A stretch of 64,000 nt of DNA from the NCBI RefSeq assembly GCF_964204645.1, contig NC_134027.1, forward strand, positions 15,052,485 to 15,116,484. The letters are read 5' to 3'. Shown here one piece after another: positions 25,517 through 64,000 of the stretch. Made by a program: the position numbers and the translations under genes. Numbering within the stretch: the stretch's first letter is position 1; each line of letters opens with the position of its first letter. Source of the DNA: Tubulanus polymorphus. Lineage: Eukaryota; Nemertea; Palaeonemertea; Tubulaniformes; Tubulanidae. Under the pieces are notes generated by a model. It saw only the letters and a list, made by a program, of their open reading frames with translations, had not been told where the DNA came from and did no database searches.

Positions 25517-25523
25517 TTATATA

Positions 25524-26252: not shown

Positions 26253-26263
26253 TAGATGAAGCA

Positions 26264-28230: not shown

Positions 28231-28244
28231 AAAAAGATCAATTA

Positions 28245-31798: not shown

Positions 31799-32855
31799 AT
31801 GAGTTATCCAGTGACTCGTGCATCGCGTGCTCGCATTATGCGTAGTAAAAGTTCAGAAGATATATCAAGTCCAGACGGTCTTGTGAATAACGAGACGTCG
31901 ATAACAGTAGTTCAAGGTGATGTAGGTCCTGTAAGCAGGTCCGCATCGTATCGGTCTAGTATGACCAGTAATCCGACAGGCCAAACGTTCTCTGGCGAGA
32001 GTCAAGATGGAACATGGTCTCGAAGTAGTGGTTCGGCGGATGTAGGTAGAACAAGTTCTTCCGGTTCCCGCAATATAGAACCAAATGTGATCTGTAAGAT
32101 AGAACCAGAAAATTATTCAGGTGACGGATCATGGCAAGATTATAGATTAGGATTTGAAACAGTATCTAGAATCAACCACTGGTCAAACGATGTGAAAGCC
32201 GATTTCCTACTCGCTTCACTACGAGGCGCGGCTAGACAATTAGTTTGTACCAAGTTGGTTAACACGGAAAGATTAGAGTATCAAGAAATCTGTAAGATTT
32301 TAGATGCAAGATTTGGTCCAGGGGATTTCGCAGAAGTCCATCTGGCCGAACTGCGCAATAGAAAACGCAAGAGACATGAGAGTTTAAAAGAATTGGGACA
32401 AGCAGTAATAATACTGTGTGCTCAAGCGTATCCTGAATTCTCTTTGATACAAAGAGACAAGCTAGCCAGAACCCATTTCATTGAAGCATTATCTGATTGT
32501 GAAATGAGAATGAGATTATGGCAATCAGATGTAAAGAGTTTTGATGAATTGATCTCGTATGCGTTGCGTTTAGAAAGTATATATATATATGATGGAATCA
32601 TCAAATGATAGGTTTCCACGAGAAACGTATGTAAGACAAGCGATAGTTTCAGACGAGCTTAAGAAAGAAATGGCGAGTTTAAGAGAAGATGTGCGACGTA
32701 TGTGCAATAGTCGTAGAGATAATCATAAATCTCAGTCGACACCATACAGAGCAAGTAATAACGTAGTTTGTTATAACTGCCAACAAAAGGGTCATATAGC
32801 AAGACAATGTACACAGCAGCCTTTAAACTCTCCCGCGCCGTTCAAAAGGGAGTAG
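31799..32855 (+). pseudogene. Gypsy-2 Gag
   Basis: The frame starts MSYPVTRASRAR at 31,799. A Ser/Gly-rich N-terminal part is followed by a capsid-like domain (YSGDGSWQDYRLGFETVSRIN; DFLLASLRGAARQLV; FAEVHLAELRNRKRKRHESLKELG). The frame breaks in a TATATATATA run near 32,580-32,592, most simply by dinucleotide slippage, and resumes with a single CCHC knuckle CYNCQQKGHIARQC at about residues 60-73 of the second frame. It ends at 32,855, overlapping the protease frame by about 50 bases, which is consistent with a programmed shift into Pol. Confidence 0.88.
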
Positions 32856-34474: not shown

Positions 34475-35527
34475 GACCAAGGCATTGCTTGTACTGAAAC
34501 GAAAGTTAAAGCAATTAAAGAATGGCCTCAGCCAGTGACTCCGTCGGGAGTACATTCTTTTATGGGATTAGCATCCTATTATCGTTCGTTTTGTAAAGGG
34601 TTCGCTTCGATAGCTAAACCCTTATACACTCTTACAGAAAAAGGCAAAGAATTTAAGTGGTCACCCGAGTGTGACGCAGCTTTTATAAAGATCAAAGAGT
34701 TATTAACGTCAGCACCTATATTGGCATATCCGGACCCGAATATATCTTTTATACTAGACACAGATGCTAGCAATACGGGGATAGGAGCAGTTTTGTCCCA
34801 AATTCAGGATGGAAAAGAAAGGGTGATAGCATATGCAAGTCGTACGTTAGCCAAGCCTGAAAGAAATTATTGTGTAACGAGACGAGAATTGTTGGCTGTA
34901 GTATCATTCATTAAGCATTTTAAATACTATTTGATGGGCAAGCGTTTCACTTTGAGAACAGACCATGCCTCTTTAAAATGGTTAATGTCATTTAAAGAAC
35001 CAGAGGGACAGATAGCAAGGTGGATATCCGTATTAAGTACTTACGATTTTGAGATCATCCATAGGCCAGGCAAGAATCATGGTAATGCCGATGCATTATC
35101 CAGACAAGAGTGCACACAATGCGATCGTATCACAAGAAAGAATGAGGGCGACTGTAATGAAATGAGAAAGAGTAGAGTAAACAACTTAGTATCAGAAAAA
35201 GATATAACTGAAACTCAATATACGCAAAGCCAATTTTCTCCAGAGGGTCATTGGCTACCTACGAATATATCACAGGCTCAGCGTAACGATCCCGAGTTCA
35301 TGTGGATATTTCCGTATATTGAAAGCAATAGTAAACCAGAATGGTCCGATGCGAGCGAATTAGGCAAAGACGCAAAATTCTATTGGGCTAGGTGGCAACA
35401 GTTAAAGATTATAGAGGATGTTTTATATATCTGTAAACAGGGAGAAGGATTCAGTGAATCCGTTTTACTAAATTATTACCAAAAGATTACAGGGAAGAAG
35501 TTTTATACAGTTTACATAACTCTATAA
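34475..35527 (+). pseudogene. Gypsy-2 RT connection and RNase H
   Basis: This is the same frame as the RT. It has the connection segment (GVHSFMGLASYYRSFCKGFA), RNase H with ILDTDASNTGIGAVLSQ, the RRELLAVVSFIKHFKYYL block, RTDHASLKWL and the terminal NADALSRQ. After RNase H comes a charged linker with a CTQC cluster. A frameshift near 35,500 separates it from the integrase. Confidence 0.9.
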
Positions 35528-36213
35528 CTGCTGCACATCTAGGGATTCGTAAAACTTTAACAAGAGTGCACGGCCGTTTTTATTGGCATCACATCCGGCA
35601 AGATGTAAGAACGCACTGCTTGTGTTGTTTTGTATGTGGTGCTCGAAAGACACCGGCAGTAAAACCAAAGGCTAGCTTACAGTTATACAGAGTGGGTCTT
35701 CCAATGGAAAGAATAGCTATGGATATTTTGGGTCCATTGCCTACTTCACGCAACGGAATGACCTATATATTAGTAGTTTGTGATTATTTCACAAAGTGGG
35801 TAGAAGCCTATGCTTTACCAGATCGGAGTGCGGAAACCGTAGCGTGCAAATTAGTAGAAGAATTTATATCGAGGTTTGGGGTGCCAAGAATAATTCATAC
35901 AGATCAAGGTGCTAACTTTCAATCTAGATTGATGAAAGAAGTATGTGCATTATTAGAAATAAAGAAAACTAGAACGTGCGCGTATCATCCACAGTCTGAT
36001 GGATTGGTCGAACGATTTAATAGAACTTTATTGAATTGTTTGGCCATGACAATCCATGATGATCAAGAAGATTGGGACGAGTGCCTACCTTACGTAACTA
36101 TGGCGTACAGAGCCACGAAACATGACGTCACAGGCTATTCTCCTAATCACTTGATGCTCGGAAGAGAGGTAGATTTACCAATCGATGTGATTGTGGGTGG
36201 ACCGCCTTCTTAA
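35528..36213 (+). pseudogene. Gypsy-2 integrase, C-terminally cut
   Basis: The zinc-binding region (AHLGIRKTL, then CLCCFVCG) leads to the DDE core: D in AMDILGPLP, D in IHTDQGANF and E in SDGLVERFNRT. The frame stops at 36,213 soon after REVDLPIDVIVGG, about where the family would begin its C-terminal SH3-like region; that region is absent and the next frame encodes a C2H2 finger instead. Confidence 0.9.
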
Positions 36214-39913: not shown

Positions 39914-42900
39914 TTAATGGCCATAAGGAACGGATTTAAACTAGTTTTTTCAACTTCATTAATGTACTTCTCGTGATCTTCTGATCTTAAACGATTCATT
40001 TTATGTTTCATTACAATTGAGTTATATAAACACTTTATATAATCTTGAAATTCTATGTCATTCTATGTTTATCAACCACATGTTTTGTTATTCCTTTTAA
40101 CTTTTTAGCTTCATGATCTTTTTTTCTATAACTATACATTTTACTTCTTATCCCAACAAATTCAATCATTTCATCGCCCCCTAATTCATCTTTAAATTTA
40201 CCAGGAATTTTTTTATTATCATTGCTAAATAGTTCATGAAGTTTTGGATAATTGATAAGTCAAAATCATGTTTTAATGTTTTTAAGTCTTTTGTTACGTC
40301 ATTTGTCTTGATTTTGAGTATGTAACTGTCAGTATTCTTTAGGATTAATGGAAATCCACAATTAAATGTACCATCTTCAGTTGTTAAATCATAAACATGT
40401 TCTGTAGGATTGGATATTTCAAATAAAACTCTTACTTCTTCTGTTAGTTCATTTTCTACATGCGTTAATTGAAATACATTTAGTTTATCCTTTCTAATAT
40501 TAACTAACATATTAAATCCTAATGAATTGCATAATATATTTAATCCTGATATAGCAACTTTTCCTTTTTGTGTCAAAGATATAGTTTTCTGTTTTGTGTA
40601 GTTTTTTGAACCATCTGCAGCATAGAATCCAATGAAGAACCATTTTCTTGAATTATCTTTTGCATTTAATACATAATCTGGTACTATCTTTAGTTAAAGC
40701 ATTACTTTTAACTATTGCATGAATATAGAATTCATCATTATATTTAATTGCAAAATCTTTAGGATTATTTACATGTATTCTATAAACTGCTGATGATTTC
40801 ATAACATCTATGATTTTAAATGTTTTATTTCGATAAACTTCTTTACAGTATTTCTTTATTCTTTCTAATAATTTCAAATCTTGATTGCATAAGCACCAAC
40901 AATATTGAGTTTGATTAACATGCTTATACACACCTGCTGAACCATCACCCATAAAAAATCCTTTGATAAAATATTCTTTTTCTTCTAATGTTTCAGGTTC
41001 TCTATTTTAAATATTATAAATTATTTCATCAAATGACATATGATTCATTCTTTGGAAAAATATTTTATGTAATAATTCATCTCCAATTTTTATATCAGTT
41101 GGTTTTATTTCATCACCATTTTGTTTAATTAAAATATGATCTTCAGTAACACCAACGAATCCTGATTTAGTTCTAACTCTATAGATTTTCTTATTTGTTT
41201 TATGCCTAATAATATTCTTTAATTTTTTCCATCCATTTCTTGTCCAAACATCCATTAATCCATTTATTTGTATTAATTCTTTTCACCATATGAAATATAA
41301 AGTTCATTTTGTTTTGGAATTATTTCTGAAATTCTTCTAATTAATATTTGGTTATTGTATTTTAATAATATGGGGGTATCAGCTGTTACAGAATCAAAAT
41401 ATAATATTTCAATATGTTTTTCCCCATAAAGTGGTTGTAAAACATTATAATAAAAATCATACATTAATAATTTTGATATTTCTAAAACAGTTGAACCAAT
41501 GAATATAGGTTTATTAAATTTCATTGACGTTCTTTTTAATTTTTCTGCTGTTAAATAAACTTCAAATCTTTTATTTCCTAAATAGGACTTGATTGTAAAT
41601 GTCTCAATCGTTCAGAATTATTTACTAATTCAATATCATTTCTATTTCTAATATTTTCACGTTTTTCAGTAAAAACTATTATTCATTAATTTGAAGGAAT
41701 CTTTTTCAAAATCTGTTTTTGATATGGTCCTCTGTTGAGTATTAAAATCTATATATTTTTCTAACCACTTCGATTGATTAAATTCAATATATCTATGTAC
41801 TTTCTATAATTTCATTCCTTGTTTTGGATAAAATTTTAACATTCTATAATGAACAATATAATTGTATTTATTATTTTGAGTAAGTATTAATTTTTGTGTA
41901 AAAACATGATCTTTCGGTTTTATTTTCTTCTTGTATTCACTTAAATAACTATCATCTGCGGCTAAATGTTCTGGGCAATATGGTAAGTTTCTTGTTTTAA
42001 ACCTAATGTTATCAGGATATTCTAAATCAACTACAAAAAATAACCAATTGGTGCTTCATCTTCTAAACTCATAATTGCGCTTTCCCAATTAGTTTTATCA
42101 TCATTTTCAACTTCTGTTGAAACATAAAATTTTTACATGGTTGGGGTTGCATCATTGCCCAACCATATACATTATTAGCGTCAATATATAATAATTTATA
42201 TTCATCGTTTGCTTTAAAATGTCTCCCATAACATCTCCCATAAAATCTCCCATAACACCACTTATTCCACCTCTAATTGATTTTTCAAATAATAAAACCA
42301 TGTCTGGTTCTTTTAATAAATCTAATTCTACATTTGTATATTTAAACCACATTGCCAGGTTAAGCCAGGACTTGAATAACAATAACAGGGATCAACATTA
42401 AAATTAACTTCTCTGAATTTTTCAAATATATCAGCCATTATCATAACATCTGATTTTAAATATAAATCTACTTATTCACCATGATTTTTTTATCTTAAAA
42501 TGATTCCAAATATTTAATGTTCTATTTAACACTTCATCTTTCACATACTCCTCTTTTAATTGATCATAAAATTGTTCTTTTAATAATTCTGTCATCATGT
42601 GTTTTATAAAATGAATAAGGAATTGCACCTTTAAATCTCAATAATTTAAAATCTTGTTCATTTGGATAATAATGTGAGTTATTATGAAATCATTATCAAC
42701 TAAACTTTTTGCTAAATTATCTAATGAACTTGCTAAAAATCTATAAGAATCTAAAATTCTAATGCAACCAAATTGAAATGAAATACAATTTTCAGATGTC
42801 TTAGCTAATAGTTTAAAATCATATTTTCTTACATTTGCGCCATTCATAGCATTATATTCTTCTATTTCCTGATTAATTGTGCCCAATTTTCCTGATAATT

Positions 42901-44195
42901 GTTTTGTAAATAGATGGGTATCATAGCCTGATAAATTATGAAATAATATTGGTACGAAATTGACTTTCTTAGCTCGTAAATTGCAATCTTCATGAGCAGC
43001 TCCACGATATTTTGTATTTAAATGATCATGATCTCAACTTTTTTTATCAAATGAATAAACACGTTTTTCACAGTAACAACAATGAGTTGCATAATTGAAA
43101 TCAATTTCATCTTCTTTTGTCATAACTTTTCTTTTATTTTTGTTTAATAATTTTGCAAAATCATTTTCTATTTCAATTATTGGATTACAAATTTCATTTA
43201 CTACATATTCACCTCTAAAAGAAATATATTGACTTTCATATAATTCAGGATAATTTGATTTTATATAAATTCCATAAGCAGCAGCTCTTTGATGAACTTT
43301 TTTAATTGTATTTACAATTGGTGGGTCTTGAATTACGTCTTCATTTAATTCATTTCCTTCGTCCATTGATTTTAGAAATTGCTTTTTGTTATATATTGCT
43401 TTTCTATCTTGATCATTTAATTCTTTATTCAACGATTCAAAATCCCCATAAATTACAAATGGTACTATATTTTTAAATTTATGATTAATAAATTTCAACT
43501 TACAATCTTTTTTGTTGGCATTATTAATTTGCAAAAATCTTTATTATCACATAATTCTTTATGTTTTAGTAATGCATTTTCAGTTCTAAATTAAGATAAA
43601 CATTTTCTATATAAATATATTTTATGACTGTTAAGATCACTTTCTGTTCTAAAGAATAATTCTATTTGTTTTAACCACATATAATGTTCATTTTCATCTT
43701 CTTTATAGTATAATAAATCTATAACATTTTCATCATCATAATATTCTGTTAAATATAAAGCTTCTAATGTATAATCTTTAATATTTTCACCTTTTGTCTC
43801 TGGTAATTGCATTAATTCGAATACTTTTATTTTTAAATTATTAACTTTTTCTACTTTAGGAATCATTTTTATAGTTACTGGATATTGATCAATTTTATAT
43901 AATGTTTCATATTTCCGGTAATTTGTTATTTTACAAACATTTTCCTGAGTTGGGTGTAAACAACTAATAATTGACCATAGAAAACATTTATTGTCTTCAT
44001 TTTGAACATTTATTACTGCTTTTGTTGTAAATGGTAATTTAATATAAGATGATGCTTTAATATCCTTTTCTGTTGTAAAGTTTGAATCATTTTTAAATAT
44101 TCTTTTACTTTTTGATGCTTTATTCCTTTTTGTATTATAAACATTTAAATCTAAAAATACAATTTCATTCAATGTTAAACCAGAACCCTCAAAAT
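39914..44195 (-). pseudogene. Polinton copy 1 PolB (main part, with intein)
   Basis: Protein-primed family B DNA polymerase, frame broken by many indels and stops. In gene order it has the N-terminal region (CFLWSIISCLHP), Exo I (VIYGDFESL), a zinc-like CCYCEKRVY cluster, Exo II (near 42,910, HNLSGYDTH), Exo III (near 42,440), motif A (near 42,175), and motif C split by the intein at 40,334-41,392. Motif B is damaged near 41,690. The C-terminal IRSKMYSYR-like region is at about 40,120-40,150. A deletion near 39,925 shortens the C terminus relative to copy 2. The N-terminal end lies beyond the transposon at 44,196-47,264. In Polintons this enzyme replicates the linear element from a protein primer. 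Confidence 0.92.
40334..41392 (-). other. Intein with LAGLIDADG endonuclease in PolB copy 1
   Basis: It starts with Ser in SVTADTPILLK directly after Y-F-D of PolB and ends with Asn directly before T-D-S; length 1,059 bases, 353 codons. The Hint block with T-E-D-H is at about 41,140. The first LAGLIDADG motif is near 40,950 and the second (WFFIGFYAADG) near 40,610. The C-terminal block YDLTTEDGTFNCG is intact; the residue before the terminal Asn is Lys rather than the common His. Lesions include a one-base deletion near 41,280, an in-frame TAA near 41,010 and a shift near 40,690. It sits at the same site as the copy 2 intein. Confidence 0.9.
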
Positions 44196-47100
44196 GAAAG
44201 GCTGAATCCAAGAACATGTCTATCGCACTTTTGAGCCCAAACGTCTACTTTTACTTAGTAGCCACTGAGAACAATAAGCAATTAACGATATCGGCTACTT
44301 ATCCAGTAGTATACATTTCAAAACAGTCACTCTGAAATAGTATTCGTTTCAATTCGGTTGGTTTTTCATAGTGGCTGTTTCGAAGAGTCTACTATTGAAA
44401 AGTAGTGACCACTTGAAAACATCTGGTTTTGATAGTGCACACTAGCAGTAGAGGTGTCTGTAAAACCACCCGTCTGTAAACAGTGACTTTGTGATAGTAA
44501 CTCATACCATAACGGCTACTCTCAAAACATATCGTTTCTAAAAGTAAACTATTGAAAAGTGACCATTTTGAGATCGCTTGCCAGATTCCCTGTTATAAAT
44601 ACACTGTAGCAACATATGCTTCAGATTTGCAGTGATACGTGACAATATAAACATACTGAGAAACTCTACCCACCTATAGTTTGGGGTATAGTTCTATTTA
44701 GAGTGACTCTTAAGATCTGAAGATATTGTACATACTCTTTGAGGATGTGAAATGTAATGATCGATTCCCAACTCTAACCAATAAAAGTCGAGATTGGAGT
44801 TAAATTCATTTACAAATTGTCAAAAGTCATGTAGTTTTAAGACAAATCGAAATTTCCTTCTTTTTCATGGCGATATAATTTAATGAGGAATTCAATTTGA
44901 ACAAATGCAGCTATTTTCAAGCATAGGGCTGCATTTATTTTTGATTTAAATTCTTTGATTAAAAGCGCAATCATAAATTCAGGCTAACCTCTTATTATTG
45001 AAATGGTGGTTTATTTTCAACGGGGGGCCTGGATGTCTTTGCATCTTAAATTACGATCTGTTCGAATTTCCCTGAATTCTAATTTCGCTGCATCATTGAT
45101 TTTTTTAAACAAAATATGCTATGTATATCCATGTGGATTTTAAATATTCTAAAGAAATCATCTAAATCAAGCCTATATTTGATCAAATTTGATATCAATA
45201 AGAAACTTTGTATGGTATTCAAGATTTAATTTGGTGAAACCGCAACGTTTCGACGGGTGACTAAAACAGCCATCATCAGGTGGAATGTAGACATTCCTAG
45301 TGAGAAGGCCTTTTAGTCAGATGGCTGTCAGTCAACATCCGAACCGTTGTGGTTTAACTTTAATAAATTTCATGATACAAAATTCTATTGTGGAATTTCC
45401 TCATTTATCTACAGTTAACGGATTAGAGTATTTTATTTGACTTCTTCGGGTCCTGTAGTCAATTAGGTCGAAAATTATTCACTTTTCGGCTCGGAAGCGA
45501 TATACAACCGTGTTGGTCGCTATGATAGGGATTCCCTGTATATCTGCACCTTAGATCGGTACCTTTGTTGGTTCTAGCCTCGGTACCTTTGTTGCGTTCG
45601 CTTCCAAATTCAAGTATTGGTATCGTTATTCTTACTCTGAATGCACTTCTGTTGTCGAACATGGTGCCACATATTAGTAGTTATTATTTTACGATAATTT
45701 GTAAAAATGAGTTTAGTTGGAAAAAACTGATAATTATCACAAATGATCATTGGTTCATCGATTAAGCGAAGTTCAAACACCATTTTGGCGTATTATTTTA
45801 TTGGCACCTTGAAATAAAGTTTCATAGAGATATTGCGGTGCTAAGTTTATTACTATTATGAGGTAATTACTTTTGGTTCGAGGTCTTTTGGTGGCCAATG
45901 CAGTTTGTTCATTCGTTCATCAATCACTGTCTAGTTAGCCAGTGTAATTGACCTGCTGACCGATAGCTGCTGCTGGGTTTTTGAAAACCTATATAAACAA
46001 TTTACTCAACAAAGTAGGAAAGTGTGTGAAACTGAAATTACAGCCTATCGCATTTCTTTCACTTCTTAAGCCAAACGAAGTTTTCTGTATCAAATGAAAT
46101 TGCTGATTTCAAAATTACGTGAATATCTCAACACTGCCCTTTTACACGCTAATCTTGTGATCTTTTATAATAAGTTGGTAATTTCATTTCAACCAAACTG
46201 TATAACTATGAAATAATATTTGATCAGGCAATCACTTCTGGCAAGCGATAAAACGATTCATGAACAAGCCAAGAACAGCGTGACGAAGTGAACATAACAT
46301 TGATTACTTAAAACCCTTTGTATCGAAATAAACAATAAATTCAAGGTTAATTCTTAGTATTTTAGATACATTTTTTTCGGAATATTTTGTATAGTCTTCA
46401 TCCAGATAATGAGATAATAAGACGTTATTCATTTCATGAACATATGATTTTATTTGTATATTCCTTTCTCATATATCCTTAAAACAAATTAAGCCTAAAT
46501 GACAAATTTATTCTTTTATCTTTCTTTTCTACAAAATCAAAGATTTATGAACGCACCAGAATGTTTTATAATCGTAAATGTAAAACAAAAATCTTAAAAT
46601 TCTTAATTAGGACTGGCACTATATTAGTATTAATGGATTTAATCCTTGATGATGTTATATAAATCAATAGTTTTCCTATTGGATATTGCTATTTTGTTGA
46701 GCGTAATATAAATTAGGGGAATCTTGGCAACTCCAAAACTTGGATTTTCTATTCACAGAACTGTATTCAAATCATACAGAGTTCTGTATACAAAGCATAT
46801 AGGGTTTAACGTAACCTTTGAACCTGTCACGTATCACTGCAAATTTTTAACAGATGCTGCTATTTTGAACAGGAAATTACCAGGCCATCTCAAAATGGCC
46901 ACTTTTCAATGGTTCAATGATAGAAACGATATGTTTTGAGAGTAGATGTTATGGTAGGAGTTACTATCACAAAGTCACTGTTTACAGGCGGGTGGTTTTA
47001 CACATCACCTCTACTGCTACTGTGCACTATCAAAACCAGATGTTTTGAAATGGTCACTTTTCAATAGTAGACTCTTCGAAACAGCCACGATAGAAAACCA

Positions 47101-47264
47101 ACCGAATTGAAAGGAATACTATTTCAGAGTGACTGTTTTGAAATGTATACTACTGGAAAAGTAACCGATATCGTTAATTGCTTATTGTTCTCAAGTGGCT
47201 ACTAAGTAAATGTAGACGTTTGGGCTCAAAAGTGCGATAGACATGTTCTTGGATTCAGCCTTTC
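44196..47264. mobile_element. Long-TIR DNA transposon inserted in PolB copy 1
   Basis: The ends GAAAGGCTGAATCCAAGAAC are inverted copies of each other, and similarity runs about 380 bp inward on both sides (44,196 to about 44,580; about 46,880 to 47,264). AAAT on both sides (44,192-44,195 and 47,265-47,268) may be a 4-bp target duplication. The 2.3-kb interior (44,600-46,880) shows no transposase; it includes a TTTCGACGGGTGACTAAAAC motif near 45,249 seen at the ends of many invertebrate repeats. It is probably non-autonomous. Confidence 0.85.
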
Positions 47265-47997
47265 AAATATGTTTCTTTAATATGTCTTTTAAATTCATTA
47301 AATATTTTTCTCTTTTATTTGTGTTTTTCAAATTATTTCTTCAGAGTGTGTTTGAATATTATAATCCATTTTTACTTCTGATTTGATAAAACTTACTTTT
47401 CCAGAAATTCTAAATTTTGGATATTCAACATCTGTTACAAAATCTAGTATTTTTTTCCATGATTTCAATAAATTTACTATAATCTTCTATTGTTGCTCCT
47501 TTAAAAAATCTAAATATAATAACTGCAGGCCCAATTTTACTACGTAATATTTCTGAAATTTCAATTGTATCTTTTATTTCTAGTGAATCGATATAATTTC
47601 TAACATTTTCTATATAAGGTTTATTTGAAATAGATTTAGTTTTTGAAACTGGTTTTTTTACTTGTTTAGGTTTATCATCAAAATAATCTGTTCCTAAAAC
47701 ATTATTACTTAAATTTTGTTTGTGTTTTTGCGATTCGAGATGTCTTTTATAATTCCTTTTTGCTATAAATCCATTACATACTTCACCTTTTATTTCATCC
47801 ACATTCATATTTTCTAATTGTTCTTTTCTTTCATTGGAATTTTCTGGAGTTTCAAAATCTATAACATTTTTTTAATGATTTGCAGTTTTTTCATGCCGAG
47901 ATTTATTAGATTTTTCAATGTATTTTTTACAATATGTACAATAATATTGATTTTCATTAACATCACTTTTTTCTGTCTGGTACTCACTGTCTCCCAT
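47265..47997 (-). pseudogene. Polinton copy 1 PolB N-terminal zinc-finger region
   Basis: The gene starts ATGGGAGACAGT at 47,997, at the inner edge of the terminal repeat. The first 45 or so codons hold a C2H2 finger (CTYCKKYIEKSNKSRH). After a stop near 47,874 a second finger follows (CNGFIAKRNYKRHLESQKH), then a basic linker and a conserved block (IGPAVIIFRFFKGATIEDY). The frame stops at about 47,425 but similar composition continues to the transposon at 47,264. By position this is the N-terminal part of PolB; it could instead be a separate small gene upstream. Confidence 0.7.
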
Positions 47998-48054
47998 TTA
48001 TTAGGGAAAATAATTACTTGTGGTGATGAGTGGTGTGTCGTCCTCTCGTCCTCT
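47998..48054 (-). repeat. Terminal inverted repeat of Polinton copy 1
   Basis: Read on the minus strand it starts AGAGGACGAGAGGACGA and continues CACCACTCATCACCACAAG to TAATAAATGGGAGA, matching the start of copy 2 at 50,129 in inverted relation. Polintons begin with AG, as here. Neighbouring bases at 48,055-48,060 (GATCTG) may be the 6-bp target site, but the partner is lost. Confidence 0.85.
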
Positions 48055-48161
48055 GATCTGAAAACGCCATATTCCAATTACTCAAATTGCATCTAAATCG
48101 ATGTGCCCATTCTTTAAGTATTTGAAATTTGATATTGACGTCTTCAGGTTTGGGTAGTAGT

Positions 48162-48842
48162 TCAGTTTTGATTCTCAGTTATTCTGTACAAAAAACACGC
48201 TTCTTCGAGTCTGGGTTCATTCAGGTACCAATTTATCGTATCATTTTGACCATCACTTGTTGGAGTACGCGAAAAGACGGATGAACAGTGCAGTCTTGTT
48301 TTGTTCGCATTTTCGTGTTTTTCGTTGTAGGCGTCCGCGAGCGCTTTGAAAGAGGCACCGAAATGATTCATCGAGACGGAAACATGTTCAAGATAATCAA
48401 TGGAAAACGCGGTTTGAGATGTTGATAGAAAATAGGTTTCGTTTGGATTTTCTTAATAATAACGTTCGTCCTTCATTCCATTAATTGTGAAATATTGCGG
48501 GTGATATGAAAGCTTCTTGTTCACACAATGCCTACATTCTCCAGAAAACGAAGCCGCTATGTGTATTCCGGTTTTGGTAAATACATGTGGAAAAGACGGT
48601 TCATTTCTCAAAGATATTTTTCATTCGCAAAACAAGCACATCTGTAACGGCGGCATTAGCACAATTGGTTCAAATCCATCTCTGCTGGATGACACTGTCC
48701 CATAAATTATATCTTTGTGAATAGTCTCCATCCTAAGTATATCCGGATATTGTTGACTAATGACCCCATCAAGATCACGACAGCACATTTCACTTTTTTC
48801 GAATGTCCTAACAGATGAAGAGCGACTACAGTTTCCTACCAA
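48162..48842 (-). pseudogene. KDZ-transposon-associated cysteine-cluster remnant (CxC5/CxC6-like)
   Basis: One minus-strand frame, with a single in-frame TAA near 48,453, resembles the cysteine-cluster proteins accompanying Kyakuja-Dileera-Zisupton transposons: C-x2-C in CLFCEW, VFTKTGIHIAASF, C-x2-C in CRHC, then YFLSTSQTAFSIDYLE, FGASFKALADAYN and an ending RLEEACFLYRI. In that family these modules accompany the DDE transposase; no transposase is visible here. The assignment rests on the motif pattern alone. Confidence 0.6.
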
Positions 48843-49089
48843 TTATATACGTACTCCCACCATTATATAAGTACTATTCGTCTCAAAATCGTTTGAAATG
48901 TCCTCAGAAGCTCCAAGATATGTACATCCTTCCATAAATGCTTCCATCGATTTGGTACCGGTATACATTTAGGGAAAAGCTCTGATGCTTTCATAAAAGA
49001 ACATTGTTCTCCGAGTCGTACATAAAACGCCATTTTATCAATTAATATTCACACAAAACGGTAAAACTTTGTTATGGTATCCAGGTGAC
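48843..49089. other. Non-coding spacer
   Basis: No gene or repeat is recognised. The 104 bases at 48,055-48,161 are likewise featureless apart from the possible Polinton target site. Confidence 0.4.
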
Positions 49090-49344
49090 CCTCTGGAACG
49101 ATCCGGAAATTTGTGGAAAAATAATTCTGGTTTTCCGGAATTCCGCGGTACACCCCCCCCCCCTCCGTGCCGTTACGCAATCTGCTTTCTGGAGAGATCC
49201 GGAAATTTCTGGAAGAGCAATTCTATTTTATTCTGGAACGATCTGGAAATTTCTGGAAAAATAATTCTGGTTTTCCGGAATTCCGCGGTACACCCCCCCT
49301 CCGTGCCGTTACGCGATCAGCTTTCTGGAGAGATCCGGAAATTT
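49090..49344. repeat. Tandem duplication of a roughly 150-bp GC-rich unit
   Basis: The block with GGAAATTTGTGGAAAAATAA, TTTTCCGGAATTCCGCGGTACACC, a C-run and CCGTGCCGTTACGC appears twice (about 49,098-49,205 and 49,246-49,344), with a third partial GGAAATTTCTGGA between. The frames through it are not convincing proteins. Confidence 0.8.
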
Positions 49345-49620
49345 CCAAGCTCGTGATAGCCGACACGCTAATTCGGGCATGTGCGGACGGCGACGATAAT
49401 CGCCCGAGAATTCTTGAATTCCGAGAGTTTGGAGAAATTCCTGATGCGTGCGTTGAAGAAATAATAACTGCTATGGACACTGATGAGTCCATGCAAGTGC
49501 TGAAATCACTGATCCTGGACGGATGGCCGAACCGCAAGGACCTCGTGCCAGATTGCGCGAAACCGTATTATGATATGCGTGACGTAATGAGTATGTGTGT
49601 GTTAAGTCCTGTAATAAAGG
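49345..49620 (+). pseudogene. Ty3/gypsy pol fragment (RNase H-integrase linker)
   Basis: About 80 codons in one frame include the LILDGWPNRKDLVPDCAKPYYDMRDVMS block. A GWP...YY..RD pattern is typical of the linker between RNase H and integrase in Ty3/gypsy Pol. Nothing of the rest of the element is adjacent. Confidence 0.65.
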
Positions 49621-49689
49621 TTCACTTCATATTGGAAAACCAGTCGAGTTTATCTCTAAATTCGAGTCGTTTTGGGTCGTCAATGTCGA

Positions 49690-50110
49690 CATTTTAGGAT
49701 TCTGTCTTTCGTCTGGACAGAAGTTGGTCCCTCGAGCCGAGGGTATCATGGAACAAATGGAAAAATTGAAGCAGCCAAGGAGAGCCCAAAGAGGGCAGGT
49801 TACAAAATTACGTGGGAATTGCGAGAAACATTTGGAGGAAAAAATGTGCCAAAAGTTATGTCAACCTTAAAGACTCTTTATTCTAAAATTGAATTGTTGG
49901 AATCGCTCGACAATCAAATTCTAGAATCCTCAGAATTATCTGGAGACGAATACGGTGATTTGGTGGCGAAAGGAAACAAGAGATCGATTTGCTTGAAATG
50001 GCCTTCCAGGAATTAGCTGTTCAAGAGACAAATCGGAGCGATTCGAACCGTGCTCAGAAATCCGCGAGAACTGCAAATCTACCAAAAATTAATATACCGA
50101 AGTAATTAGA
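49690..50110 (+). pseudogene. BEL/Pao leader and Gag N-terminal fragment
   Basis: TTGGTCCCTCGAGCCGAGGG at about 49,725 resembles a BEL-type primer-binding region. A Gag-like start follows (GIMEQMEKLK, then RAGYKITWELRETFGG in a shifted frame), with acidic LYSKIELLESLDNQILESSE and, after a further shift, the LPKINIPK that in BEL Gag precedes the capsid-like domain. It is cut off at 50,128 by Polinton copy 2. Confidence 0.6.
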
Positions 50111-50128
50111 AAAGTGGGGTTTCATACC

Positions 50129-50185
50129 AGAGGACGAGAGGACGAGACACCACTCATCACCACAAGTAATTTTTTTTCCTAATAA
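50129..50185 (+). repeat. Left terminal inverted repeat of Polinton copy 2
   Basis: It starts AGAGGACGAGAGGACGA and runs to the ATG of the first gene; inverted match to 47,998-48,054. It contains a T-run and CCTAATAA just before the ATG, so it also carries the promoter-like signal of the terminal gene. Confidence 0.85.
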
Positions 50186-50512
50186 ATGGGAGATAGAAAA
50201 GCATTCTTAGCAACAATAAATAACAGAATAAAACCAGCAAAAAAACAATTTGAAATAAAAAAGTTAGTTGATGTTACAAAAGAAATTGAACATAAAATAT
50301 TGAAATTAGAAAAGATAAAAACTAAATATGGAGAGAAAGTATCAGCTAATTTAAGCTACTGTAATGTTAGTACATCGCGAGAATTTAAAGTGTTTTTACC
50401 CGATAAATGGGTTTCATTGAGTACGGAGGAATTGAAAGATTTAGTAGGATTTAAAATAATATATCATGGGAAAAATGAAGACGGTCATCATGATTTAGAA
50501 ATTGTTGATTAA
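50186..50512 (+). CDS. Small conserved Polinton end-gene protein (108 aa)
   Basis: Starts MGDRKAFL at the inner edge of the terminal repeat; the first codons are shared with the PolB gene at the other end through the repeat. A basic N-terminal half (RIKPAKKQFEIKKLVDV) leads to ILKLEKIKTKYGEKVSANL and then FKVFLPDKWVSLS and a short beta-rich C terminus. The KxxxxxYGEK..A.L...F.VFLP pattern recalls small OB-fold-like proteins, so single-stranded DNA binding during replication is a guess. It is uninterrupted and converges on the 122-residue gene. It has no counterpart in copy 1, where this end is lost. Confidence 0.75.
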   Translation: MGDRKAFLATINNRIKPAKKQFEIKKLVDVTKEIEHKILKLEKIKTKYGEKVSANLSYCNVSTSREFKVFLPDKWVSLSTEELKDLVGFKIIYHGKNEDGHHDLEIVD

Positions 50513-51850: not shown

Positions 51851-52459
51851 TTAAATAAATTCATATTTAAATGGGTGTTGTAATCTAAATAGTAATTTTG
51901 ATCTTTTAATATTTTTCAACTTATCCATATATTCATTATGTAAATCATGTGGAATAATATCATTTTCCTCAAGTGCATTTTTCATTGATTTTCTATCTTT
52001 ATTGTAGAATAAAACTAGAAATCTAATGTTTTCTCTAAAGTCTTTAACAATTGAATTATATTTTCGATTTAAAACCCAAGTTGTTATCCCAAAATGTCTC
52101 CCAGAGAAAGCTAAATAGCATAACTCACTTTCTCTAACTTTTGAATCATGTAGATTAGCACAATCATCTATAATGAATAATGTATTTGATCCTTTATAAA
52201 TATCAATTGCTATTTTAATACAATTATCTAAATTTTCTTTTACTGTTTTAGGATCAAATATAATAAATTTCTTATTCCTAGTAATATTTCTATCATAAGT
52301 TTGATTAAATTCATATGTTGGACAAAATAATACTATATTATCAAAATAGTTTTCATAAACAGTTTCTAATAAATTTAATATAAAATAAGTTTTTCCACAA
52401 TTTGTTACACCAGAAATTAACATATTATGAGGCTCAAATATGAATAATTCCTTATTCAT
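51851..52459 (-). CDS. Polinton genome-packaging ATPase (FtsK/HerA, A32-like)
   Basis: 202 codons. Walker A GVTNCGKT at residues 17-24; Walker B TLFIIDD at 93-99; a Ser/Gly-rich sensor region SGRHFGITTWVLNRKY follows at 119-134. The order and length match the small packaging ATPases of Polintons, adintoviruses and virophages, which drive DNA into the capsid. ATG follows directly on the TAA of the integrase gene (TAAATG). No lesion is seen. The PRD1/A32 type assignment is strong because the neighbours are capsid and integrase genes. Confidence 0.92.
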   Translation of the reverse strand: MNKELFIFEPHNMLISGVTNCGKTYFILNLLETVYENYFDNIVLFCPTYEFNQTYDRNITRNKKFIIFDPKTVKENLDNCIKIAIDIYKGSNTLFIIDDCANLHDSKVRESELCYLAFSGRHFGITTWVLNRKYNSIVKDFRENIRFLVLFYNKDRKSMKNALEENDIIPHDLHNEYMDKLKNIKRSKLLFRLQHPFKYEFI

Positions 52460-53587
52460 TTATATATTTTTAATTTTACTTGATAATATCCATTCATTAA
52501 ATTTATCTGGCCATCCAACCCATTTTACTAAAGAATATTTTTTTCTTTTAATAGTTTTTGTTTTTAATACTTTTTCAATTTTATATTCTTGTTCTAGATT
52601 TTCAGTAGTTAAACTTAATTCTTCTTCGTAAAAGTAGCCATCAACTTCTTCACCATCTAAATCTTCTAATTGATAGACATATGGTTTTGTTGTTATTACC
52701 TTTTTTATTTTATATATTTCCCTAGTAAAATTTCGATCGTATCCTTTGTCAAATATCTTTTTATACTTAGATATTCTAACATTTTGGCCAACTTTAAATT
52801 TAGGTTCACCAAAATCATCTACAAGAAATGCTCCATATAAATTATTCCAAACAATTTCAGCATTTTCAGATTTTCTAGCATCAATAGGTTTCATTCCAAT
52901 AGAAGAATGATAAGAATTATTATATCCTTCTATCAATTTTGGTAAAACATCAATCCATTTAAAAGTATTATTTGCTGTAAAATATTTCCACATTCTTGTT
53001 CTTAATGTTCTATTAAATCGTTCAACAACTGCTGCTTTTTTATCTGATTTTGTTGAAAAATATTTAATATTATGATTATCTAAGAGTTCATGAACAAGTG
53101 AATTATCAAACTCTTTTCCATCATCAAATTGTATTTTTTCTGGATTTAGTTTATCATCCGAAAGAAATTTTCTTAAAACATTTGATGTTTGTACAGCATC
53201 TTTTCTATAAAGTGGGAAACTCCATACATAACGACTAAAAATATCAATTATATTCAATAACCACCAATAATCATCATTATCTTTCTTAACATTTTTCATA
53301 TCAATTAAATCTCCTTGCCACTGTTGATCTACATAACTTACCATAGTTTTACGAGTTTTATATTTTCTAACAATTTTTTTATGTGTTGTATATGTTGGTT
53401 GTTCTAACATAAATTCATTTATATCTTTATATTTAACTAAATTTTGTGGGATTATCTTATCTAATTTATCTTGTTTTACTTTACGCCATATATTTTTAGT
53501 AGAAGAATAAGCAACCGAACTCTCAGGGTTGTAATATAAATTTCTTAAATATTGTTCTTTAGTATTAGGAGTTTTTTTACCACTCAT
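52460..53587 (-). CDS. Polinton retroviral-type integrase with chromodomain
   Basis: 375 codons. DDE core: D at about residue 93 (QGDLIDM), D at 155-156 (QFDDGKEF) and E189 (VVERFNRT). A DNA-binding beta region follows (FKVGQNVRISKYKK ... VYQLEDLDGEEVDG). The C terminus is a chromodomain (YKIEKVLKTK ... KYSLVKWVGWPDKFNEW, about residues 327-368). Polinton integrases of this type insert the element with a 6-bp target duplication; the chromodomain probably guides insertion to marked chromatin. The gene is uninterrupted, with its stop fused to the ATPase start. Confidence 0.95.
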   Translation of the reverse strand: MSGKKTPNTKEQYLRNLYYNPESSVAYSSTKNIWRKVKQDKLDKIIPQNLVKYKDINEFMLEQPTYTTHKKIVRKYKTRKTMVSYVDQQWQGDLIDMKNVKKDNDDYWWLLNIIDIFSRYVWSFPLYRKDAVQTSNVLRKFLSDDKLNPEKIQFDDGKEFDNSLVHELLDNHNIKYFSTKSDKKAAVVERFNRTLRTRMWKYFTANNTFKWIDVLPKLIEGYNNSYHSSIGMKPIDARKSENAEIVWNNLYGAFLVDDFGEPKFKVGQNVRISKYKKIFDKGYDRNFTREIYKIKKVITTKPYVYQLEDLDGEEVDGYFYEEELSLTTENLEQEYKIEKVLKTKTIKRKKYSLVKWVGWPDKFNEWILSSKIKNI

Positions 53588-53617: not shown

Positions 53618-54865
53618 CTAATATTGAATACTATCTAATTGTGAATTTACAATATTTAATTGCACGTCAGATATAATATAAATGTGCATTTTAAAATTTT
53701 TGATTCCTTTATTCTTTGTCATGAATAATTGTATTCCATCTTTAGTGTTCTGTAGTTTTTTTCCAAAACCATGTAATGAATTATCTTCTGTTGTTCTAAA
53801 ATCTAACCATAATCCATATTTATTACCGGTATAATAATCAATTTGATTAATATTACAATTTTCAAATGATTTTACTTTTTCATTCATAAAATGTTTTCTA
53901 ATTTCTGACCATTGATGAATCATTCTCATTCCTTGACAAAATATTTTATTCGCTATTCCTTCGATAGTTATTTCTACTTTTGTTATTTCAGGATTATAAT
54001 AATTATCAACATTTATTGCACCATTAGAATATGTTGCAATAGTAAAAAATATTAATATACCTTTAATAGATCTTCTAGGAAAGTTAATATTCTCATTAAT
54101 TATTTCATCATTTGCATTAATAGTTACAGTTTTAAATTTATCAATATAATCATATAATAATGAAAATCCTTGATTGTATTGAGTTTGAATTGTGCTAGCA
54201 ATATTTTCATTAGTTACTGTGTTATATTCTAAACATATATTCGATAATTTATAACCCATATCTTTAACAACGCTAGATAATACAATTTCATTTACAGGAG
54301 CAAATGTTATCTCAAATATAATATCTTCTTGAATTGCGTATTTATATAAAGGTGCATTATTATTTATCAATTCAAAGTCTAATGGAATTTTATATTTGCT
54401 TCCATAAATCTTTTTAATCAAATTATCTACGCCATTATTTACTACTGCGTTATTGGCTTCAGATCTTAATTTATTTTGGTTTTCTGATTGAATTCCTTGA
54501 AATATCATATTATTTCTATTTTCTTTAGTTAACCATAAATCTTTATAATGTGAAAATAAATTATAATCATCTAATGAGAAAACTGTTTCCGGACCAATCT
54601 TTATTGTTAATTTTTTAATCAAATATCTTCCAACATTATCAACAACATAATTATTATTATTACCGATTACTTTTATATCAGCTGATAAATAAATACTATT
54701 TGGAACATAAAAAGTATTTTGTGTTAATCTAGGAATTCTAACATATAAAGTTTCATCGGGATTAATATTTGAAGGGTTATGAGTAATTATATGATGTGAT
54801 CTTTCTGCTTTAATAGCATTAGATATTCTATGATTCTTCGAAGGACTTATATAACTCCCACTCAT
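53618..54865 (-). CDS. Polinton major capsid protein candidate (415 aa)
   Basis: The protein is beta-rich throughout and has no membrane segment. Blocks such as LYVRIPRLTQNTFYVP, VGRYLIKKLTIKIG, IPLDFELINNNAPLYKYA and WLDFRTTEDNSLHGFG follow one another as in a two-jelly-roll fold. It is the largest soluble non-enzymatic protein of the element and lies between the integrase and the coiled-coil membrane protein. By position and composition it is the best double-jelly-roll major capsid candidate; I cannot model the fold, so this is an inference. No lesion is seen. Confidence 0.65.
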   Translation of the reverse strand: MSGSYISPSKNHRISNAIKAERSHHIITHNPSNINPDETLYVRIPRLTQNTFYVPNSIYLSADIKVIGNNNNYVVDNVGRYLIKKLTIKIGPETVFSLDDYNLFSHYKDLWLTKENRNNMIFQGIQSENQNKLRSEANNAVVNNGVDNLIKKIYGSKYKIPLDFELINNNAPLYKYAIQEDIIFEITFAPVNEIVLSSVVKDMGYKLSNICLEYNTVTNENIASTIQTQYNQGFSLLYDYIDKFKTVTINANDEIINENINFPRRSIKGILIFFTIATYSNGAINVDNYYNPEITKVEITIEGIANKIFCQGMRMIHQWSEIRKHFMNEKVKSFENCNINQIDYYTGNKYGLWLDFRTTEDNSLHGFGKKLQNTKDGIQLFMTKNKGIKNFKMHIYIISDVQLNIVNSQLDSIQY

Positions 54866-59122: not shown

Positions 59123-59926
59123 TTACTCTTTACATCTTATAACTAATTCATAAATTACAGGAAAGTTATTCAAATCAATTAAATAACCATTATGATTTCT
59201 TATTTCTAATTTAAAATTATTGAAATGTGGAATACAAGGTTTAAAATCACATTCAGCTAAATTATAATTTATTTGCGTTCCAAATTGTTTAACATTCTTC
59301 AATGGTAAAATGTTTAATATACTAGAATTACATGTTGTATCTTTAGTTGCTTCGAATGTTTTTGTAGGATCGATTAAATTGCAATAAATATAAAAGTGTG
59401 TAAAAGGTATTATATTTGAGTTACCGTGTTTGTTTCCACCAAATTGATTTGGAGTAATTCCTAATAGTTTAGCTATAGGTTTTTTTACCGTGTAAGTATG
59501 TCTTCTTGACATCAATACACTATTATCAAGTTTATCAAGTTTAATAAGTTCATCATCAAACTTTATTTTAATTTTATTAGAGCTCTCACTTTTTATGAAT
59601 TTAATATTAAATTTAGAATTACCATTACCTAATCTAATCCGAGCTTTTCTATTAATTTCTTGCTCTAATGTTTCTAAATCATATAATCCTGGTGTAAGCA
59701 TAAGTTGAATCCATTTTTTTTCAAGTTTATCAAAAATAAGAAGGCTTCTATGTTCATCAGTTTTATCCGATATATTGTAAAAAGAATTACATAAACTTAT
59801 ATTTACTAATTTTAAATCTACACAATTCTTAAATTCTCTATCTAATTGTACTAATAAATTATGTGATTTATAATTTGTAAGTCTTCTAGAATCAACAAAT
59901 ATTCTATATTCTTTTAATTCTACCAT
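59123..59926 (-). CDS. Polinton minor capsid (penton-like) candidate (267 aa)
   Basis: Starts MVELKEYRIFVDSRRL. The protein is beta-rich with blocks VDLKLVNISLCNSFYNIS, WIQLMLTPGLYDLETLEQ, THFYIYCNLIDPTKTFEA and the C-terminal FPVIYELVIRC. This resembles the single-jelly-roll minor capsid (penton) proteins of Polintons, but that is inferred from size, beta content and neighbourhood. Its homologue in copy 1 (25,524-26,252) is the most similar part of the two elements. It is transcribed divergently from the zinc-finger gene at 59,995. Confidence 0.6.
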   Translation of the reverse strand: MVELKEYRIFVDSRRLTNYKSHNLLVQLDREFKNCVDLKLVNISLCNSFYNISDKTDEHRSLLIFDKLEKKWIQLMLTPGLYDLETLEQEINRKARIRLGNGNSKFNIKFIKSESSNKIKIKFDDELIKLDKLDNSVLMSRRHTYTVKKPIAKLLGITPNQFGGNKHGNSNIIPFTHFYIYCNLIDPTKTFEATKDTTCNSSILNILPLKNVKQFGTQINYNLAECDFKPCIPHFNNFKLEIRNHNGYLIDLNNFPVIYELVIRCKE

Positions 59927-59994: not shown

Positions 59995-61291
59995 ATGGAT
60001 GAGAAGATAGCATGTGAAATTTGTGGTGAACTTCTAAGAAAAAGTAATAAGGCTCGACATATGAAAAAACATGATGAAAATTATAAACCCCCTAAAATAA
60101 ACTGCCCAAAATGTAATAAATTATTCTCAAGAAATTATGTTAAAAAACATTCAGAGAAGTGTAGAATTAATGGCGCAACGGCTAATGTTGATAGTAATTC
60201 TGCTGAAGTTGAACCTGAAGTTATTTGGAAAAGACCTTTCTTATTCTATGATAAGGATAATATAAAAGATCATTTCTGTGAGCCTTGTCGAATAAAATAT
60301 AACCCTGAAAATATAGAAGATTGGGAGAATCATCAATTTCGTAAAGTACATATAGATAAAATTTCTAATAAATTTGAAAATGAATTTAATGAAAGAAAAG
60401 ATAATTTATTAGAAAAAATATGAGAAAACATTACCAGATAATGAAGAAACAGTTGAAAAGTTAGAAAAACAATATAATGAATTAACAAGAAAAACATATT
60501 ATTGTAAATATTGTAAATTGATTATTACAACAAGTAATTCAAATCTACATAATAGAACAATAAAACATAAAGAAAACGTAAGAAAATACCAAGAGCTTAA
60601 TGAAGATCTATTACCAAGCTATGATAGAAAAAAATGCCCACAATGTATTTATGAGTACTTAAGACAAGAAGGTCCTGTGATATTTTGTAATGAATGTGGA
60701 TGGCAAAAGAATTTATTAGGTGAAGAAAAAACTAGAGATTTTCTCATAGATCCAAAATTAAATTATCTTGATGAAATTTTTAAAATATTTTCTATAGAAG
60801 ATCATACACCAGAATATATGCAATGGCTTGAAAAAATGAAAATAATAGAAAATGAAAATGGTGAAATAACTAAAAAAGATATTATAAAAACAATTATTCC
60901 ATCAACATTTAACACAAAACAAAAGAAAATGTATTTATATTTATTATTTAACGATTATTATGAAAAACCTAAATTAACAGAAGAAGATATGAAAAATATA
61001 AAAAAAATATTCAAACAAATATTAATGTATCATTTGGAAAATAGAATAACAGATTCAATAAATTATGAATTCTTTTTAAATAAGATTGTAAATTATTTAA
61101 ACCTAGATATTATAATTCCATTTGATGAATTAACAAACAAGAAGAAACAAAGAGAGCGAGATGAAATGTGGAACAAGATAGAACTTTATTTAAATGAGAA
61201 AAATGGAATGGAAGAAGAACCTGAACAATTAAATGAAAATGAAGAAGCCAATAATGATTTCGAGTTTGATGATATTGATTTTATGTTTTAA
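59995..61291 (+). pseudogene. Polinton multi-zinc-finger protein (one frameshift)
   Basis: About 430 codons in two frames joined at an A-run at 60,411-60,419. The first frame has two C2H2-type fingers (CEICGELLRKSNKARH; CPKCNKLFSRNYVKKH) and a third cysteine pair in FCEPCRIKY with a distal histidine pair. The second has YYCKYCKLIITTSNSNLHN and a zinc ribbon-like pair (CPQCIYEY ... CNECGW), then a helical, acidic C terminus. It ends at TAA overlapping the PolB stop on the other strand by 4 bases (TTAA at 61,288-61,291). DNA or RNA binding, perhaps transcriptional control of the element, is an inference. Confidence 0.85.
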
Positions 61292-64000
61292 TGGCCATAA
61301 GGTAATGTTTTTATACCATCATCTAAAATATGCCTTTTATCATCAAATGGATTTAAACTAGTTTTTTCAACTTCATTAATGTACATCTCATGATCTTCTG
61401 ATCTTAAACAATTCATTTTGTGTTTCATTACAATTGATTTATATAAACACTTTATATAATCTTGAAATTCTATATGTTTATCAACCACATGTTTTGTTAT
61501 TCCTTTTAACTTTTTAGCTTCATGATCTTTTGTTCTGTAACTATACATTTTACTTCTTATCCCAACAAATTCAATCATTTCATCACCTCCTAATTCATCT
61601 TTAAATTTACCAGGAATCTTTTTATTATCATTGCTAAATAGTTTATGATCTTTGGGATAATTGCTAAAATCAAAATGATGTTTTAATGTTTTTAAGTCTT
61701 TTGTTATGTCATTTGTCTTGATTTTTAGTATGTAACTGTCGGTATTTTTTGGATTAATGGGAACCCAGAATTGAATGTTCCATCATCTGTTGATAAATCA
61801 TAAACATAGTCAGTTGGGTTATATATTTCAAATAAATCTTTAACTTCTTCTGTTAATTCTTTTTCTACATGCCTTAAATTAAAACAATTTGGTTTAGATT
61901 TAATTAATTCTATATTCATATTAAATCCTAATGAACTGCATAATATATTCAATCCTGATATAGCAACTTTTCCTTTTTGAGCAAAGGATATTGTTTTGCG
62001 GTTTTGGAACCTTTTTGAACCATCTGCGGCATAGAATCCAATGAAGAACCACTTTCTTAAATTATTTTTTGCATTCAATACATAATCTGGAACTATCTTT
62101 TCTTTAGTTGAAGTATTACTTTTCACTATTGCATGAATATAGAATTCATCATTATATTTTGTAGCAAAATCTTTAGGATTATTTACAAATATTCTATAAA
62201 CCGCGGATGATTTCATATGATCCATGATTCTAAATGTTTTATATGAATAAACTGTTTCACAGAATTTCTTAATTCTTTCTAATAATTTTAAGTCTTGATT
62301 GCATAAAATACCAACAATATTTATTACCCCAAACATAATTATACACACCTGCTGAACCATCACCCATGAAAAATCCTTTGATAAAATATTCTTTTTCTTC
62401 CAATGTTTCGGGTTCTATATTATAAATATTATCAATTATTTCATCAAATGACATATGATTCATTCTTGGGAAAAATCTTTTATGTAATAATTCATCTCCA
62501 ATTTTTATATCAGTTGGTTTTATTTCATCACCATTTCGTTTAATTAAACTATGATCTTCTGTAACATCTACAAATCCTAATTTAGTTCTAACTCTATAGA
62601 TTTTCTTATTTGTTTTATGTCTAATAATATTCTTTAATTTTTTCCATCCATTTCTTGTCCAAACATCTATTAAACCATTTATTTGTATTAATTCTTTTTC
62701 ACCATATGAAATATAAAGTTCATTTTGTTTTGGAATTATTTCTGAAATTCTTCTTATTAATATTTGGTTATTGTATTTTAATAATATTGGGGTGTCAGCT
62801 GTTACAGAATCAAAATATAATATTTCAATATGCTTTCCCCCAAAAAGTGGTTGCAAAACATTATAATAAAAATCATACATTAATAATTTTGATATTTCTA
62901 AAACAGTTGAACCTGTAAATATTGGTTTATTAAATTTCATGGACGTTCTTTTTAATTTTACCGCGGTTAAATAATCTTCAAACCTTTTATTTCCTAAATG
63001 TCTAGGACTTGATTGTAAATGTCTTAATCTTTCAGAATTATTTACTAATTCAATATCATTTCTATTTCTAATATTTTCACATGTTTTTCCATAAAAACTA
63101 TTGTTCATCAATTTGAAAAAATCTTTTTCAAAATCTGTTTTTGATATTGTTCTCTGTTGAGTATTGAAATCTATATATTTTTCTAACCACTTCGATTGAT
63201 TAAATTCAATATATCTATGTACTTTCTTTAATTTCATTCCTTGTTTTAGATAAAATTTTAACATTCTATAATGAACAATATAATTGTATTTATGATTTTG
63301 AGTAAGTATTAATTTTTCTGTAAAAACATGATCTTTCGGTTTTATTTTCTTCTGGTATTTACTTAAATAACTATCATCTACAGTTAAATGTTCTGGGCAA
63401 TAAGGTAAGTTTCTTGTTTTAAACTATATATTTTCAGAATATTCTAAATCAACTACAAAGAAATAACCAATTGGTGCTTCATCTTTTAAACTCACAATTG
63501 CGCTTTCCCAATCAGTTTTATCACCATTTTCAACTTCTGTTAATATAAAATTTTTATGTGGTTGAGGTTGCATCATTGCCCAACCATATAAATTATTGGC
63601 GTCAATATATAATAATTTATATTCATCATTTGCTTTAAAATACCTATCTCCCATAACACCACTAATTCCACCTCTAATTGATTTTTCAAATAATAAAACC
63701 ATATCTGGTTCTTTTAATAAATCTAATTCTACATTTGTATATTTTAAACCACATTGCCAGGTTAAACCAGGACTAGAGTAGCAATAACAAGGATCAACAT
63801 TAAAATGATTCAAATTAACTTCTCTAAATTTTTCAAATATGTCAGCCAATATCATAACATCTGATTTTAAATATAAATCAACTAATTCACCATGATTTTT
63901 CATCTTAAAATGGTCCCAAATATTTAATGTTCTATTAAAAACTTCGTCTTTCACATACTCCTCTTTTAATTGATCATAAAATTGATCTTTTAATAATTCT
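61288..64000 (-). pseudogene. Polinton copy 2 protein-primed DNA polymerase B (partial, with intein)
   Basis: The gene runs off the right edge; the N-terminal exonuclease start is outside. Visible in order: Exo III (YLKSDVMILADIFEKF), motif A (YIDANNLYGWAM), an in-frame TAG at 63,424-63,426 where copy 1 has an Arg codon, motif B (KLMNNSFYGKT) near 63,100, Y-F-D of motif C just before the intein at 62,809, the intein, then T-D-S of motif C at 61,735-61,743 and a C-terminal part (IRSKMYSYRTKD, like the K-x-Y region) in an open frame to 61,288. Polymerases of this class copy linear genomes from a terminal-protein primer. Catalytic residues appear intact; the TAG and the intein shifts are the visible lesions. 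Confidence 0.93.
61744..62808 (-). other. Intein with LAGLIDADG homing endonuclease in PolB copy 2
   Basis: 1,065 bases, 355 codons. Ser1 in SVTADTPILLK follows Y-F-D of PolB motif C; the terminal Asn (61,744-61,746) precedes T-D-S. Splicing-domain features: Ser as first residue, T-E-D-H at 62,551-62,562 (the T-x-x-H block), YDLSTDDGTFNSG near the end, terminal Lys-Asn (Lys where His is usual) and Thr as the +1 residue. Endonuclease motifs: YFIKGFFMGDG at 62,356-62,388 and WFFIGFYAADG at 62,019-62,051, about 110 residues apart, as in single-chain LAGLIDADG enzymes. A one-base insertion near 62,305 and a one-base deletion near 61,749 compensate in length. Confidence 0.93.

Follow-up and report, generated by a model that had tools for sequence, protein, structure and literature searches.

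We describe here an intein with a homing endonuclease in the DNA polymerase (PolB) gene of a Polinton/Maverick element in the nuclear genome of the nemertean Tubulanus polymorphus. It was found in a 64,000-nt stretch of contig NC_134027.1 (assembly GCF_964204645.1, positions 15,052,485 to 15,116,484 of the forward strand), which we call the window and in which all coordinates below are given unless another contig is named. The insert splits catalytic motif C of the polymerase, which is of the protein-primed type, and we read it as a degenerate class 1 intein of pol-c type (Ser1, TEDH, Asn355 and Thr+1) with a LAGLIDADG endonuclease, of which the intact copies, located elsewhere in the genome, most likely splice and home or have recently homed; we give this reading a probability of about 85%. 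The intein is genuine and its design is ordinary; what is unusual is that it sits in an animal genome where occupied, empty and recombinant sites occur side by side. The features of the window are listed in Table 1.

The polymerase at the end of the window (copy 1) reads Y-F-D before the insert and T-D-S-Y after it. The insert starts with S-V-T-A-D-T-P, ends with K-N, and contains a T-E-D-H block and two LAGLIDADG-like motifs (GFFMGDG and GFYAADG). Judged by these flanks, the insertion point is YxD/TDS of motif C, the classic pol-c site. The flanking residues, the start of the insert, the T-E-D-H block, the presence of two LAGLIDADG motifs and the terminal Asn had been named in an original prediction made from the letters of the window, and its central claim, an intein with a LAGLIDADG endonuclease at the pol-c site of a Polinton PolB in an animal nuclear genome, held up. 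The single PolB frame that it described did not: copy 1 consists of four stop-to-stop frames (63999-63424, 63423-62269, 62414-61725 and 61782-61288), with one in-frame stop in the N-extein (TAG at 63426-63424). Within the insert the frame shifts twice (in the 62414/62272 and 61782/61728 intervals), and the lengths of these two changes cancel out. A check with profile hidden Markov models, also proposed at that time, gave a mixed result. Single frames of copy 1 matched Intein_splicing and LAGLIDADG_3 (E 0.0011 for each), both below the gathering score, and the C-extein of copy 1 alone had no Pfam match; the intact copies have better intein domain scores than the window frames (Pfam/NCBIfam), with PF14528 above the cut-off.

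The insert is found at many other places in this genome. Using its first half as the query, we obtained 470 candidates and scored 150 of them, all with an E of 1.2e-102 or lower and an identity of 85-100%. One full-length open frame (1686-1690 aa) runs through the insert in nine of the 150 scored candidates, and 16 of the 30 best-match loci carry an in-frame insert of 355 or 356 codons, flanked by YFD and TD[S/A]Y. An exact N-junction pattern matched 268 filled sites genome-wide, and the reversed control pattern matched none; a chance origin of the insert was rejected on this ground. A pattern for the uninterrupted motif gave 554 matches (control: 1), and one of ten fetched matches was unlike PolB. 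Places were listed for 100 matches each of the 554 empty sites, the 268 filled sites, and the 113 and 540 matches of two further searches, from which the exact empties and the loci filled with a family-B flank were drawn (families are defined below). Among the places listed on contigs C1-C4, the PolB genes are mostly mid-contig; on C1, for instance, which is 32.1 Mb long, they lie between 10.7 and 22.4 Mb.

The window contig (C3, 27.8 Mb) belongs to a 267.8-Mb genome of 77 contigs. Wnt exons gave 39 matches, on several large contigs including C3, and none in 14 control genomes; TTAGGG-type repeats were seen at one of the ten contig ends inspected. Because Wnt exons lie on several of the same contigs as the copies and a TTAGGG-type end is present, the host is an animal, and the insert sits on a host chromosome, in animal nuclear DNA. 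Inteins are stated to be absent from metazoan genomes in a passage of a 2018 survey that argues for intein inhibitors as antimicrobials (PMC5784728), which would favor contamination, assembly error or a spliceosomal intron over an intein of the host genome. We hold such an explanation to be very improbable: intein copies are spread over contigs C1 to C12, there are 268 and 554 pattern matches, several copy-bearing contigs carry Wnt exons, and the insert codes for protein and has a predicted intein fold. Contamination, which had been named at the outset as a possible objection, was rejected by the Wnt exons that share contigs with insert copies and by their absence from the 14 control genomes, and a spliceosomal intron by the coding content and fold of the insert.

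Conservation was assessed in 18 intact inserts, identical inserts being counted once (L026 had no N junction under the filter, and L021, with 356 codons, lies outside this set). Ser1, Asn355 and Thr+1 are present in all 18 and were part of the selection filter; Asn355 and Thr+1 were also seen directly in the best-match loci. T83-x-x-H86 is found in 18/18 inserts, as is G149-D150 of the first LAGLIDADG motif, and the Asp of the second motif in 15 of the 16 in-frame best-match sequences (L022 has Asn); both motifs carry acidic residues. A Hint fold is predicted for the intact insert. The ratio of nonsynonymous to synonymous change (pN/pS) among intact copies is 0.18 in the splicing part and 0.26 in the endonuclease part; judged by these ratios, purifying selection acts on both parts. 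Splicing and site-specific cleavage by the intact copies are most likely: the 355-aa insert would excise after translation and join YFD to TDS, restoring the catalytic motif, and the endonuclease would cleave intein-free polymerase genes at this site, or have done so recently. Repair of the cut would then copy the intein into the empty site (homing) and shuffle intein and extein ends. The original prediction further held that the polymerase is active only after splicing. This is not supported for copy 1, which is interrupted three times, and therefore splicing-dependent activity would be possible only for the intact copies elsewhere.

The occupied and empty loci compared belong mostly to different polymerase families. 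Of the 49 filled loci, most are of PolB family A (median 96% alike); the nine empty ones, from which L044, a pattern match with flanks unlike PolB, was excluded, are of PolB family B (median 93.5% alike); between the families, the medians are 77% upstream and 67% downstream of the site. Four of the five exact empties fetched (L076, L077, L078 and L080) have family-A flanks and no insert; against whichever of 12 filled copies is most similar, they are 97-100% identical over most stretches compared and 91-98% just upstream of the site. The fifth (L079) is empty and mainly family B, and weakly A-like (92 vs 88%) over the first 150 nt downstream. The six loci fetched as filled with a family-B flank include three family-B copies with the whole insert (L082-L084, flanks 95-100%), two family-B copies in which just the final part of the intein survives (L086 and L087; the deletion also removed the end of the N-extein), and one family-A copy (L085) with a short mixed tract, undecided between the families (91 vs 89%), right after the C junction. 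At the C junction, several intein ends join several extein starts in many combinations, and in filled copies identity is lower close to the site, upstream and downstream alike though unevenly, than at a distance of some hundred bases.

Codon usage next to the site was also recorded. Either Ser or Ala follows T-D, with the codons AGT, GCG or GCC in most filled loci compared, and AGT or TCT at the same position in the majority of the 100 listed empty places. The codon differences amount to recoding at the presumed endonuclease target, by which a site would perhaps escape cutting.

A second polymerase copy in the window (copy 2), 21.4 kb from copy 1 and 81-97% identical to it per block, has a mosaic intein. 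Its first part is family-A-like and its last ~315 nt resemble the family-B intein, with an identity in this last part of 74-77% to L005 (family A-like) and 92-97% to L083. Together with the exceptional filled and empty loci above, this mosaic supports, inside the genome, the exchange among elements that the original prediction had proposed; across elements, support comes from one relative, P0053 (see below). An inverted-repeat pair (44195-44403 / 47056-47265, with more repeats inside 44195-47265) adjoins the N part of the copy 2 gene, and the frame 47425-47871, with no Pfam match, may be the remainder of that gene.

Several observations, given in this paragraph and the next, weigh against splicing and homing by intact copies. 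Copy 1 is dead, and the product cannot be made from it. In 20 further filled loci (the first 20 among the 100 filled sites listed of 268), the insert is in frame and stop-free in only four, and two of the 20 also have the preceding 300 codons open; with 4/20 intact and 16/30 best matches in frame, most copies inspected are therefore fossils and a minority are intact. The selection test was restricted to intact copies, and pN/pS is uneven along the insert (0.63 at codons 151-175 and 1.26 at codons 176-200, the latter a stretch with low synonymous change). Residue 354, the penultimate one, is K, F or V and never His in the 18 inserts. A penultimate His is usual, not universal, in class 1 inteins, and its absence here, along with the 554 uninterrupted-motif matches in the same genome, would agree with a real insert that has lost the His and does not splice (or only cleaves), the polymerase being supplied by intein-free copies. 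We think this unlikely, since the splicing part is under purifying selection (0.18) and nine of the 150 scored candidates keep a full-length open frame through the insert; moreover, many related PolB inteins end with LIVKN, and residues other than His are thus frequent at the penultimate position here.

As for homing, 71 empty sites carry the exact 33-nt family-A-type sequence around the site, and therefore homing has not swept them. The whole inserts of the filled family-B copies share a length that is not divisible by three (3/3), and they may therefore be dead passengers. Identity also dips away from the site, to 0.953 in the stretch 600-700 upstream and to 0.938 in the one 400-500 downstream, and there is variation in the nine family-B empties as well (0.91 at 100-200 upstream). 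The same 71 sites and out-of-frame family-B inserts, and the distribution of the fetched loci (mostly family A when filled, family B for the nine PolB empties), are what one would expect if the intein had entered the ancestor of family A once and had since been copied only along with the element, with an inactive endonuclease and with gene conversion or template switching accounting for the filled and empty exceptions. We find simple inheritance of this kind somewhat doubtful, as the endonuclease and splicing parts have rather similar pN/pS values, the GD of the first motif is kept in every intact insert, and the distantly related PolB_2 of P0053 has an intein at the same site. A more far-reaching possibility is a living homing system in an animal germline, in which the intein has recently moved, or is still moving, between two Polinton polymerase families. 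Filled and empty sites in the hundreds, recombinant intein alleles and close relatives that lack the intein would be the traces of it; we hold this view tentatively, at slightly less than even odds.

If such a living homing system exists, a selfish element resides inside a virus-like transposon inside an animal. Homing is usually inferred from comparison between species. Here, occupied and empty alleles are found in similar backgrounds, in two gene families of one animal genome, and the 268 and 554 matches suffice for statistics; as some copies are filled and others empty, the spread of the intein can be studied inside one animal. The original prediction was unaware of any well-described intein from the nuclear DNA of a metazoan. 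The survey passage cited above (PMC5784728) agrees with it, and our results bear on that statement. A passage of a 2024 preprint speaks against it, reporting that homing endonuclease domains of diverse kinds occur at varying positions in polinton pPolBs, which suggests invasions by inteins (PMC11071308, which rests this on Jeong 2023, a nematode study), and an intein of an animal Polinton may thus have been published already. The literature titles and abstract openings listed contained no further description of an intein, homing endonuclease or LAGLIDADG in Polinton/Maverick elements, adintoviruses or animal genomes.

Table 1. Polymerase copies and other Polinton genes in the window.
Feature	Position	Strand	Remarks
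Intein of PolB copy 1	61744..62808	-	355 codons' worth (1065 nt) with two frame changes; 355 codons in intact relatives
N-extein of PolB copy 1	62809..64000	-	runs past the window edge; DNA_pol_B_2 E 6.8e-8 on 63427-63999
C-extein of PolB copy 1	61288..61743	-	starts T-D-S-Y; stop-to-stop frame 61782-61288
Intein of PolB copy 2	about 40334..41392	-	1059 nt, broken, mosaic, between YFD and NTDS
N-extein region of PolB copy 2	41393..44244	-	broken
C-extein region of PolB copy 2	39950..40333	-	broken; far end approximate
Polinton integrase	52460..53587	-	rve core PF00665 E 4.1e-10; chromodomain PF00385 E 8.2e-4, below gathering score
Polinton packaging-type ATPase (Pox_A32)	51851..52459	-	PF04665 E 9.2e-13
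415-aa gene, candidate structural protein	53618..54865	-	by place and size only; no Pfam match
267-aa gene, candidate structural protein	59123..59926	-	by place only; no Pfam match

The assignment to Polinton/Maverick elements is based on the RVE integrase, the A32-type ATPase and the DNA_pol_B_2 polymerase (PF03175), which neighbor one another and make up a Polinton core; the element extends past the window, and its structural genes are candidates by place. The frame 25476-25979 resembles, by eye, part of the 267-aa gene, and the window may therefore contain a third Polinton remnant. Other features of the window include an inverted-repeat pair of 96 nt at 47987-50196 (88% complementary, 2 kb apart), long frames (14000-19800, 22677-24770, 26228-29984 and 31736-36213) that by appearance are gag/pol of a long terminal repeat (LTR) retrotransposon, and short repeated units at 21268-21905 that are open in three frames. 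Rfam, searched with the whole window at gathering scores, gave no match.

For comparison with known inteins, we obtained intein bounds for 109 of 167 proteins (58 gave none) and built a tree of 89 rows, i.e., 84 inteins of 300-440 aa starting with S-V or S-I and five of our own copies; its rows are PolB and topoisomerase inteins plus a few others from the search, with archaeal, pol-a and pol-b inteins left out. The 12 labelled Polinton inteins, together with P0002 and P0053, are all placed to the same side of a 99/90 branch (midpoint root), and the P0053 intein joins our own copies and P0050 with a support of 100/93. The exteins of P0053 form a distant PolB_2 that BLAST (1e-3) did not match to the polymerase described here, and such a Polinton-like intein within distant exteins points to lateral exchange. 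L041 and L043, PolBs that we interpret as phage-like, have inteins at the motif-C site as well.

Other Polinton-type PolBs fall in the same tree group, with N-exteins 42-58% identical to ours, and have inteins at the same site (identity 64% for P0050, 50% for P0051 and 42-46% for P0054-P0056); unlike the copies here, P0051, P0052, P0055 and P0056 keep the usual penultimate His. The KOD polymerase intein PI-PkoII (2cw7) differs more, with 20% identity, a length of 537 aa and an archaeal polymerase as its host. The Mimivirus insertion site, YGD/TDS, is classed with the archaeal pol-c allele in a passage of PMC549080. The pol-c inteins of Mimivirus and of PF00136 PolBs such as P0057-P0067, which we call giant-virus type from their domains, share the motif C position and start with SVTxDTP or a near variant, and those of P0057-P0067 are 36-42% identical to the intein here over 98-100% of its length. 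Their host genes differ from ours, which is a PF03175-type Polinton PolB and not a delta-like PolB, and the same intein position ties Polintons to giant-virus-type polymerases.
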